Assembly (NCBI RefSeq): GCF_000981765.1
Contig: NZ_CP010975.1
Coordinates: 992,001 to 1,056,000, forward strand
DNA from: Kangiella geojedonensis
GTDB lineage: Bacteria; Pseudomonadota; Gammaproteobacteria; Enterobacterales; Kangiellaceae
Direction of reading: 5' to 3'
Length of the DNA stretch: 64,000 nucleotides
Shown here: positions 47,187 through 50,466 of the stretch, piece after piece
Layout: each line of letters starts with the position of its first letter
How positions within the stretch are numbered: position 1 is the first letter of the stretch
The notes under the pieces: generated by a model
The model's input: only the letters and a program-made list of their open reading frames with translations
What the model was told of the DNA's origin: nothing
Databases searched by the model: none
Made by a program: the position numbers and the translations under genes

Positions 47187-47275
47187 GTTGAACTATACTA
47201 ATAAATACGTATGCTTTTCAAGCGTAAATAGCAAAGAAAAGTGAAAAGAGAAATAAAGAAAGGCAAGTGAGACCG

Positions 47276-48496
47276 ATGAGTTCTGAATCATTAACTGAGC
47301 GATTTAAAAAACAAGACATTGAGCCTAGTGAATTCAATCACTTGGCGCACTTAAAGGTCGCCTGGGACTATATCCATGAATACTCTATGGTCGAGGCTCG
47401 CGAAAAGTTCCATCAGGATATTATCAAGCTGACCAAAGTCCTTGGCGCAGAAGAAAAGTATCATCGAACGCTGACCGACTTCTTTTTAGATTACTTATAT
47501 CAAGTGAAATGGTACTTAAACCATACAGGGCAAAGCTCGGAATCATGGCGTTCAGTGGAGCAACAGTGCCCATTATTGATTAACGACGCCAAAAGACTGA
47601 TCAGTTATTACTACAGCGATGAATTAATCAACTCAGACCTAGCGCGAACCCAATACGTTGACGCTGATATTATGCCTTTGGATAGAGCCAGCCTGCGTTT
47701 TAGTGAGGCTGAGATACCAGTTTTCGATTTAGTTGAGCAGGATTCACCTATTATTGTTTCTATGCCGCATCACGGGCAGTTTATCCCGCATGACGTCCTA
47801 GAGCAGATGACCGACACCGCCTTAAATAGCGCCGACACTGACTGGTACCTGGTTCAGCTTTATAGCTTTTTAGAAGAGTTAAAAGTCACTCGAATCAATG
47901 CTAACTACTCGCGCTACCTGATTGATCTTAATCGAGACAGCAGTGGAAAGGTGTTATATAAAGGTGCTGACAATACTGAGCTTTGCCCGACCTCAACCTT
48001 TGATTTAGAAGCATTATACGAAGGAGACGAAGAACCTGATTCGCATGAGGTCGCGCGCAGAACAGAGCTGTACTGGAAACCGTACCACCAAGAGCTACAG
48101 CGTTTAATTAAACAAACCAAAGACAAGTTCGGCTACTGCTTACTGTTTGAAGCGCACACTATTCAATCCCACGTGCCGCGTTTCTTCGACGGGCAATTGC
48201 CAGACTTTAACTTCGGCACTAACGAAGGCCAAACAGTAAACGACCAGCTTAAAGCAGTACTTGAAAACTTTGATACTGGCGATTACTCAAAAATTATCAA
48301 CGGACGCTTTAAAGGTGGTTTTATCACGCGCCAATACGCAAACCCAGAAGATAATATCTACACCATTCAGTTGGAGTTGTCGCAAATTACTTACCTAGAT
48401 GAAAAACTAAGGTTGTTTGATAAGGAAAAAGCGCAGAAAGTTGGAGAAGCGATAAAGCGTTTGGTTCTGGAGTTGGGGAGTATCTTAGAGCGATAA
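47276..48496 (+). CDS. hutG: N-formylglutamate amidohydrolase with an extra N-terminal helical domain
   Basis: 406 residues. Residues about 145-405 are the N-formylglutamate deformylase domain (VSMPHHGQFIP, NANYSRYLIDLNRDSSGK, LFEAHTIQSHVPRFFDG), releasing Glu and formate in the last step of the HutF branch. Residues about 1-130 are an additional helical module (FNHLAHLKVAWDYI, EKYHRTLTDFFLDYL, LISYYYSDELINSDLART) absent from the usual enzyme of about 265 residues. It resembles small stand-alone hypothetical proteins I recall. ATG 47276 is preferred, though GTG 47267 is possible. It is divergent from hutC. Its TAA is the first base set of the attC-like site of the next element. Confidence 0.9.
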   Translation: MSSESLTERFKKQDIEPSEFNHLAHLKVAWDYIHEYSMVEAREKFHQDIIKLTKVLGAEEKYHRTLTDFFLDYLYQVKWYLNHTGQSSESWRSVEQQCPLLINDAKRLISYYYSDELINSDLARTQYVDADIMPLDRASLRFSEAEIPVFDLVEQDSPIIVSMPHHGQFIPHDVLEQMTDTALNSADTDWYLVQLYSFLEELKVTRINANYSRYLIDLNRDSSGKVLYKGADNTELCPTSTFDLEALYEGDEEPDSHEVARRTELYWKPYHQELQRLIKQTKDKFGYCLLFEAHTIQSHVPRFFDGQLPDFNFGTNEGQTVNDQLKAVLENFDTGDYSKIINGRFKGGFITRQYANPEDNIYTIQLELSQITYLDEKLRLFDKEKAQKVGEAIKRLVLELGSILER

Positions 48497-48568
48497 CGCC
48501 GCCAGCAGCGGCCGAGTGAAACGAGGTCCAGCGACCGCAGGGAGCGATGCTGGCTGGCCTTGTTATGA
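48491..48568 (-). other. attC-like recombination site (59-base-element type)
   Basis: On the minus strand the site begins TCATAAC-AAGGCC and ends GGCGGC-GTTATCG. The inner arms GCCAGCCAGCA and TGCTGGCGGC pair with one unpaired A in the first arm, the extra-helical asymmetry typical of attC. The centre has nested stems (GCGGCCGAG with CTCGTTTC and related pairs). The 78-bp length is in the known attC range. The TAA of the gene ending here is inside the TCATAAC box. Confidence 0.72.
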
Positions 48569-48880
48569 GTTTTCATCTTCTATTAGCTCTTTTCTGGCTT
48601 GTTGCCATTGTTCCCAGGCATACTCTGGATCTAAATCTGGATAACCTCGGGACTCAGCCATTTGCTCTGCAGCTGAAATGGGCATCATGATACAAGCCGC
48701 ATTGTCTCGTATTTCAATAACTTCCGCTTCAGTTAACGGCGAGCCTTTTTCATTTTCTTGATTGAGTAGCACTGCGACTAACGCTGGAACAGGAACCGGA
48801 ATAAGCTCTTCTTCAGGCTCTTTTTCCTTTGGTTTTCCTTTGAATAGTTTACCGATCATTTCGTCTTCCTTTACTCATAA
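48497..48880 (-). mobile_element. Solitary integron-type gene cassette
   Basis: Taking crossover at G|TT, the cassette runs on the minus strand from TTATGAG (48880) to the last G of the attC-like site (48497), 384 bp. It holds one gene (48859-48563) followed directly by the site. The left boundary GTTATGA (48881-48875) is the exact reverse complement of the site's first box TCATAAC (48568-48562), as required for a cassette excised as a circle. The right boundary is GTTATCG. No integrase or second attC is in the window, so this looks like a cassette inserted at a secondary site. Confidence 0.68.
48563..48859 (-). CDS. Hypothetical acidic protein carried by the cassette
   Basis: 98 residues, no recognised family. 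A short basic start (MIGKLFKGKPKEKE) is followed by an acidic/Pro linker (PEEELIPVPVPALVAVLL), then a soluble helical region with SPLTEAEVIEIRDNAACIMM, AAEQMAESRGYPDLDPEYAWEQWQQARKEL in outline. No signal peptide or membrane segment. Start ATG at 48859 has GGAAGA upstream and lies 22 bp inside the cassette boundary. The TAA stop overlaps the attC-like site. A TATAAT on the minus strand (48887-48882) lies just outside the boundary and could drive expression. Confidence 0.75.
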   Translation of the reverse strand: MIGKLFKGKPKEKEPEEELIPVPVPALVAVLLNQENEKGSPLTEAEVIEIRDNAACIMMPISAAEQMAESRGYPDLDPEYAWEQWQQARKELIEDENS

Positions 48881-48934
48881 CATTATATTACCAGACGGCG
48901 CTGGAAAGCTTTTGATTTTAAAATGTTTGTTTTT

Positions 48935-49031
48935 AATGTCCGTTTTTATGGCTAATACCATATAAAATCGGACATTTATGTCCAGGTATCTTTTTTGTGT
49001 CCAGTTTACTGACGCCACGGTTAGTAAACTG
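48935..49031. repeat. Two hairpin-forming inverted repeats in the cassette-hutI spacer
   Basis: AATGTCCGTTTTTATGG (48935-48951) pairs imperfectly with CCATATAAAATCGGACATT (48958-48976) around CTAATA. CAGTTTACT (49002-49010) pairs perfectly with AGTAAACTG (49023-49031). They lie in the 359-bp gene-free stretch 48860-49218, together with the cassette boundary and the repeat at 49118. Confidence 0.5.
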
Positions 49032-49117
49032 TAGGTCTTATACTAAGTGTATCTTGTGAAATTGCAATTGGTTTTAGTAAGTGAAACTTTTGAGCGTGAG
49101 ATGAGATTCTGAGAGTA

Positions 49118-49219
49118 GTTCGTCATCCCCGCGAAGGCGGGGATCTCCTACGGAATAGATTTAGCAAGATTCCCGCACCACAGGCATTTCCGTTGGTCAC
49201 CTACGCGGGAATGACGAGT
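49118..49219. repeat. Dispersed inverted-repeat element abutting hutI
   Basis: CGTCATCCCCGCG (49121-49133) and CGCGGGAATGACG (49204-49216) form a 13-bp terminal inverted repeat with one mismatch. GCGAAGGCGGGGATC and GCAAGATTCCCGC lie inside. I recall repeats with such CGTCATTCCCGCG ends as common across bacterial genomes. It ends at the hutI stop codon and may act as an mRNA 3' stabiliser. Confidence 0.6.
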
Positions 49220-50466
49220 TATTTTTTATTAATCGAGTTATAAACTTTAACTAAATTATTCCCACCTAACTGATAACTCAACTGATTTGGGTGGTCGATG
49301 TCCCACAGTGCTAACTCAGCTTTTTTGCCTATTTCAATACTACCGACTTTATCTTCTAATCCTAGGGCTTTTGCGGCGTTGATGGTGACGCCTTGTAAGG
49401 CTTCGAGGGGCGTCATGCGGAATAGGGTGCAGGCCATGTTGAGCATAAGTAATAGCGATTGCGCTGGTGAGGTACCGGGGTTGCTGTCGGAGGCGACGGC
49501 AATGGGTACGCCTGCTTGGCGCAGTTCGTCCATTGGTGGCAATTTTGTTTCGCGTAGGAAATAGAAAGCACCGGGTAGTAGCACCGCAACTGTTCCGCTC
49601 TTGGCCATCTTGTCGATAGAGTCTTGCGATAAATATTCTAAATGATCCGCGGATAGGGCTTTGTAGTCAGCGGCTAAGCCTGCGCCAGATTGATCGGATA
49701 GTTGCTCAGCGTGCAGTTTGACTTTGAGGCCATGTTTTTGTGCGGCTTTAAATACGCGTTCGGTTTGGGTATAGCTGAAGCCAATGCTTTCGCAAAAAGC
49801 ATCGACACAGTCTGCTAAACCCAGTTCCGCGATTTTAGGGATCATGTCATTGCACACTAGATCAATATACCCATCAGAATTGTCCTTAAATTCTGGCGGC
49901 AGGGCATGTGCGCCAAGGAAGGTTGTACTGACGCGAATTGGGAATTCTTGCTCCAGTCGTTTGGCGACTTTGAGCATTTTAATTTCGTTCTCAGTATCTA
50001 AGCCATAACCAGATTTGATTTCAATCGTTGTCACGCCTTCGTCGATAAAGCTTTGTAGGCGTTTAGCGGCACTTCGGAAGAGTTCTTCTTCGGTGGCTTC
50101 ACGTGTAGCTTCAACGCTAGAGATAATACCGCCACCCGCTTTGGCGATCTCTTCGTAGGCCACGCCATTGAGGCGCATTTCAAATTCGTTGGCACGGTTG
50201 CCGCCATAGACAAGGTGCGTGTGGCAGTCGATTAAGCCGGGAGAAAGCCATTGGGCTTGCGCATCAATGGTTTCTGTTGCATTGAGTTTTGAGTCGTTTT
50301 TATCAAAAGAATCGCCAACATACGAAATCAGACCATCATTAACGCCAATCGCGCCGTTTTCAATAACACCATAGGGATTATCTTCGCTGGCGTACTGGTC
50401 GGACAAAGTCGCGATATTGACGTTGTGAATAATGTAATCAAAAGGTTTCGTTTCACTCTGGCTCAT
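49219..50466 (-). CDS. hutI: Imidazolonepropionase
   Basis: 415 residues, amidohydrolase superfamily, opening the imidazolone ring to N-formimino-L-glutamate. Metal ligands are visible in LIDCHTHLVYGGNRANEF (His-x-His), AEQLSD (KLHAEQLSD) and AVASDSNPGTSP (Asp). TIEIKSGYGL is the typical substrate-site stretch. The length is normal. It is divergent from hutF with only 41 bp between starts, so their promoters must overlap. It ends at a dispersed repeat. Confidence 0.96.
   Translation of the reverse strand: MSQSETKPFDYIIHNVNIATLSDQYASEDNPYGVIENGAIGVNDGLISYVGDSFDKNDSKLNATETIDAQAQWLSPGLIDCHTHLVYGGNRANEFEMRLNGVAYEEIAKAGGGIISSVEATREATEEELFRSAAKRLQSFIDEGVTTIEIKSGYGLDTENEIKMLKVAKRLEQEFPIRVSTTFLGAHALPPEFKDNSDGYIDLVCNDMIPKIAELGLADCVDAFCESIGFSYTQTERVFKAAQKHGLKVKLHAEQLSDQSGAGLAADYKALSADHLEYLSQDSIDKMAKSGTVAVLLPGAFYFLRETKLPPMDELRQAGVPIAVASDSNPGTSPAQSLLLMLNMACTLFRMTPLEALQGVTINAAKALGLEDKVGSIEIGKKAELALWDIDHPNQLSYQLGGNNLVKVYNSINKK

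Follow-up and report, generated by a model that had tools for sequence, protein, structure and literature searches.

A gene cassette beside an attI homologue between hutI and hutG of Kangiella geojedonensis suggests an integron with landing sites spread over the genome

The stretch of Kangiella geojedonensis DNA analysed here (64,000 nt, hereafter the window; the whole genome comprises 2.495 Mb) carries between two catabolic genes an element with the hallmarks of an integron gene cassette, and raises the question of how such an element came to lie there. The flanking genes are convergent: hutG, encoding a protein of the N-formylglutamate amidohydrolase family, occupies 47267..48496 on the plus strand, and hutI, encoding imidazolonepropionase, occupies 49219..50466 on the minus strand. 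The cassette itself (48497..48880, minus strand) measures 384 bp from G|TT to G|TT, starting as G|TTATGA at 48881/48880 and ending in G|TT at 48497/48496, where the TAA of hutG begins the right flank, leaving the hutG stop codon intact. It contains a 98-codon gene (48563..48859, minus strand) followed by a 78-bp attC site (48491..48568, minus strand) with boxes R'' at 48568-48562, L'' at 48558-48549, L' at 48509-48501 and R' at 48497-48491. A preliminary description of the locus, made by inspection, had already delineated these elements, and all its coordinates, including the cassette boundaries and the integrity of hutG, were borne out by the open reading frame and by a covariance model of attC.

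The attC site has the architecture expected of a recombination substrate. L'' GCCAGCCAGC base-pairs with L' GCTGCTGGC, leaving one extrahelical base, an extra C, in the first arm (L''), as the preliminary description had stated. The TAA of the 98-codon gene sits inside the R'' box TCATAAC, and this box is the exact reverse complement (7/7) of the cassette start GTTATGA at 48881-48875, as in the circular form of a cassette. Because a home-made attC stem score failed to distinguish the site from background, we trained a covariance model on 15 attC sites from elsewhere, the window site being left out. This model yielded a single match in the 64-kb window, at 48491-48568 (41 bits, E=9e-9). Genome-wide it located three sites: the window site, one downstream of a perM-like transporter gene (position 330488), and one adjoining a tonB-like gene (position 1998375). 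The cassette, initially described as solitary, is therefore the only one with an attC site in the window and one of three cassette loci in the genome, another of which has an attI-type leader. With one attC at this locus and the other two far off, it falls outside the CALIN class, defined as two or more attC sites without an integrase (IntegronFinder; PMC9024848). A search of Rfam returned nothing above the curated cut-off, and nothing to attC or to an integron leader. The canonical hairpin of the bottom strand (-13.1 kcal/mol) is not the minimum-energy DNA fold (-18.0 kcal/mol for the best fold), and the activity of the site may for this reason be weak.

A DNA search with the whole locus revealed that the segment preceding the cassette recurs in most congeners as a repeat, the end of which lies at most a few bases from the cassette boundary. 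Approximately 190-192 bp of this segment are homologous to the intI-attI spacer of two congeners, G016 and G025 (E about 1e-39 to 1e-37), in which this repeat fills the attI region separating the first cassette from the divergently oriented intI. The homology stops at the G|TT crossover (48881/48880), which coincides with the cassette boundary, and the window keeps the last 192 bp of an intI-attI head with no intI coding sequence. This attI/leader (48878..49067, minus strand) lies directly upstream of the cassette and had been missed by the preliminary description; a leader covariance model scored the window copy at 131 bits (E=5.5e-24). An alignment of 25 leader copies ends in CCGGTAATATAATG|TTA, and both this end and the leader core AATATAATG|TTA resemble the core of attI2, which PMC12901181 quotes as AATAAAATGTTRRRY. 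The leader has in common with an attI site its homology to the spacer between intI and the first cassette and the joining of the cassette at G|TT; it has no intI adjacent in cis, and without an intI in the genome the locus is not a complete integron.

Leaders of the intI-linked type conserve a promoter-like TTGCAA-16-TACTAT, which in the window reads TTGCAA-16 nt-TAGTAT (49040..49067, minus strand), with the putative -10 box at 49045-49040. A consensus promoter scanner placed the window copy below its threshold, and its designation as a putative cassette promoter is inferred from its conservation in intI-linked leaders. Two inverted repeats, GATACC...GGTAT and ATGTCCG...CGGACAT, are likewise conserved in the leader (48918-48995 in the window, and in its homologues); they would fall in the 5' UTR and could have a regulatory role. 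Outward of the leaders, REP-like inverted repeats (GTCATTCCCGCG...CGCGGGGATGACG) are found at 49128-49215 in the window and near many other copies.

To delimit the distribution of the leader, we compared genomes within the genus, using one genome per species. The leader covariance model identified 51 copies in 17 of the 20 Kangiella genomes, from one to nine per genome and in the majority far from intI. Twenty genomes representing five further genera of the family contained no copy, nor, under stricter filters, did 184 other genomes of the class. Diverged leader types ending in GTATTCTTATG|TT and GCATATTCAACTG|TT each comprise both intI-linked and dispersed members, and the 330-kb locus of K. 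geojedonensis has its own attI-type leader of the GTATTCTTATG|TT type, with an R'' box (TGCTAAC) that matches its boundary (GTTAGCA). Among leaders with differing upstream promoters, the common part is restricted to the last 98-118 bp. Such a number of leader copies, usually far from an integrase, suggests an integron with landing sites spread over the genome. At its tonB-like position (L156; G000:C1:1995500-2001500), the K. geojedonensis genome retains the promoter portion of a type III leader with the attI core deleted, and a cassette array with attC follows this leader remnant.

These copies also provide a measure of how often R'' and the cassette boundary correspond. In 23 of the 27 leader copies with a readable first gene, the R'' at the gene end agrees with the boundary in at least 6 of the 7 positions, whereas permutation of the boundaries among the 27 loci yielded 8 matching loci on average and never more than 15 in 1000 trials. 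The correspondence at the hutI-hutG locus, which the preliminary description had judged rarely attainable by chance, is on this basis not a chance match.

Approximately 34 of 52 leaders reside at some ten chromosomal positions common to at least two species. These positions, named by reading the neighbouring proteins and listed here in part, include comM, an ABC-F ATPase gene, a gene beside secG, the tonB-like gene, rpoD and mnmE, and the neighbour genes at them show about 70-97% identity between species. The 50 first genes downstream of leaders, on the other hand, include no pair similar at E<=1e-3. Fixed positions with changing loads are the pattern that would be expected of sites used by a cassette integrase. 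The cassettes encode, among others, a type I restriction methyltransferase, a CAP12-TIR domain protein, an HNH protein, a small multidrug resistance protein and many unknowns. In one genome (G032), the 3' end of the tonB-like gene and the leader are tandemly duplicated (L106, 2321-2811 and 3981-4472), and the duplicates are followed by different cassettes. A short repeat, GGGGTCAGAGTAAATTATTA, occurs with variants in both orientations at cassette ends of L106, L108, L109 and L156, where it may have replaced attC sites.

The hutI-hutG position is not among the shared ones: a leader is present there in no other genome, and no cassette swap was seen at that site. The gap between the two genes is itself variable, holding a different single gene in each of the three closest relatives (L011, L012 and L013; one of them HNH-like) and an azurin-like or GNAT-like gene in more distant relatives (L014-L028). 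The gaps of the closest relatives contain no leader and, by model search, no attC, and hence represent neither empty sites nor cassettes; the empty site anticipated by the preliminary description was accordingly encountered in no relative, the gap being filled by other genes.

The preliminary description had noted the lack of an integrase nearby, and this absence extends to the whole genome, in which the integron-integrase family had no match over its cut-off and a congeneric IntI query returned only two Xer-like proteins, of 303 and 315 aa, together with a recombinase of 429 aa, all below the family cut-off. Among 19 congeners, 10 have intI at E<=1e-25 (nine of them over the family cut-off), and in all 10 the gene adjoins comM; intact intI was found nowhere else. 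In K. geojedonensis comM is intact, with neither intI nor a leader beside it, and since the intI of its relatives sits beside comM, the simple reading of these sequences is that intI has been lost in this lineage. At the comM locus of G017 (L096) just the two ends of intI are left, eroded intI 5' ends persist away from comM at L098, L099 and L107 (in G016, G017 and G021), and the remnants are graded across L107, L098, L099 and L096. Because three loci away from comM keep eroded intI 5' ends, the likeliest origin of the window leader type would be a duplicated intI-attI head whose intI then eroded. In two genomes comM seems truncated beside the integron, with ~310 (G017, L096) and ~285 (G021, L121) of 506 residues aligning, and an intact comM may be the price that these species pay for the resident integron.

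Relatives of the 98-aa product of the cassette gene at 55-59% identity are encoded on a Vibrionaceae chromosome (Thaumasiovibrio) and at a Neorhodopirellula locus in which attC-like sites are recognizable by eye, although our genus-trained attC model did not flag them, and further relatives are found on Pantoea plasmids. This scatter, across an attC-like locus, a Vibrionaceae chromosome and plasmids, fits a mobile gene. None of 39 other genomes of the family contained the gene, and one of 368 others of the class did, as a broken copy; no source copy of the cassette was detected elsewhere in the genome or the genus. Searches of Pfam, NCBIfam, PADLOC and PHROGs gave no convincing family for the protein, virus contigs held no relative of it, and the structure that AlphaFold predicted from three sequences was of low quality (pLDDT 62).

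We consider it probable that the cassette was inserted by IntI at a dispersed attI platform, and that intI has since been lost here. A circular cassette would have been inserted through attC x attI recombination, with an IntI encoded beside comM acting in trans; the conserved promoter preceding the leader would drive transcription of the cassette gene, and the later loss of intI from the lineage would have left the cassette frozen. The preliminary description had proposed a different event, in which a lone cassette was caught between hutG and hutI at a secondary site that is neither attI nor attC. A single cassette in a core catabolic setting with no integrase agrees with such a capture, and insertions of this kind, into attG sites, are described for IntI1 by Loot et al. 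(2024), a study cited in PMC11023631, PMC12444791 and PMC12901181. The left flank of the cassette, however, is a homologue of the intI-linked attI that ends at the crossover base, and the genus contains dozens of comparable loci; with an attI homologue as the target, we rejected capture at an attG site, which we now deem highly improbable.

Two further explanations accept the leader as an attI homologue and differ in how the cassette became associated with it. A complete integron may once have resided at hutI-hutG and decayed to attI and one cassette, the dispersed loci then being what is left of individual integrons that each had an intI of their own, with action in trans unnecessary. The eroded intI 5' ends away from comM at L107, L098 and L099 show that whole heads have moved, and integrase-less clusters are commonly taken as degraded integrons (PMC9024848). 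Against this reading, neither the window locus nor most dispersed copies retain any intI coding remnant, intact intI stands beside comM only, leaders with different upstream promoters have just their terminal 98-118 bp in common, and the loads at common positions differ in every species, even where no remnant of intI is present; we thus view decay in place as possible and as a tentative alternative. We find it rather unlikely that duplication or ectopic recombination, for instance via REP-like repeats, brought leader and cassette here as a single unit. A repeat of this type does lie on the left side of the locus, the tonB-like 3' end and leader of G032 demonstrate tandem duplication, and no relative has a leader at hutI-hutG, all of which would accord with a joint move. 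Yet the G032 duplicates bear different cassettes and no first gene is common to any two leaders, which indicates that leader and cassette are not linked over time, and the cassette has no source copy in the genome or the genus from which such a unit could have been derived.

Beyond insertion by IntI at an attI platform in this one genome, we lean, with some reserve, towards regarding the genus as possessing a distributed integron, in which the comM-side integrase would serve up to about nine attI platforms with their own promoters, at conserved positions downstream of housekeeping genes, the cassettes being reloaded in each species. In the textbook integron, the single entry point is the attI site beside intI, and only the first cassettes are well expressed. 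If the distributed arrangement holds, dispersed attI copies with their own promoters lift this first-cassette limit, allowing many cassettes to be first in line at once, and dispersed platforms explain orphan cassettes in core chromosomal regions without recourse to stray insertion. Outside class 1 integrons, attI is not a target of current software (PMC9024848), and dispersed attI platforms would therefore be missed. The open-access literature, to which our search was confined (subscription papers lay outside it), contained nothing relevant on Kangiella integrons or on dispersed, orphan or second attI sites. A single attC without an integrase belongs to a known class; genus-wide, dispersed and position-conserved attI platforms are, as far as this literature shows, undescribed.

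The Kangiella system resembles several known arrangements and departs from each of them. The sedentary chromosomal integrons of Vibrio and Xanthomonas likewise comprise attC sites, cassette boundaries and an attI/leader, and the intact version of the genus, beside comM, corresponds to them; a sedentary chromosomal integron, however, has one attI beside intI, whereas here intI is missing both in cis and from the genome at large, and the attI module occurs as many dispersed copies. CALIN and single-attC loci (IntegronFinder; PMC9024848) also hold attC cassettes without a neighbouring intI, in our case with one attC. Those loci are defined by attC alone, while the present locus keeps an attI/leader and a putative promoter, and in Kangiella the positions are conserved across species while the cassettes change. 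The attG insertions of Loot et al. (2024), cited in PMC12901181 and PMC12444791, similarly place a chromosomal cassette away from an integron, in a generic genomic target instead of the attI homologue found here. Finally, the delta-attI-type cassettes of class 1 and 2 integrons (PMC12901181) also involve attI sequence away from intI, with a similar G|TT core; in those cassettes, an attI fragment replaces attC after the gene, whereas at hutI-hutG a whole leader precedes a normal attC cassette.
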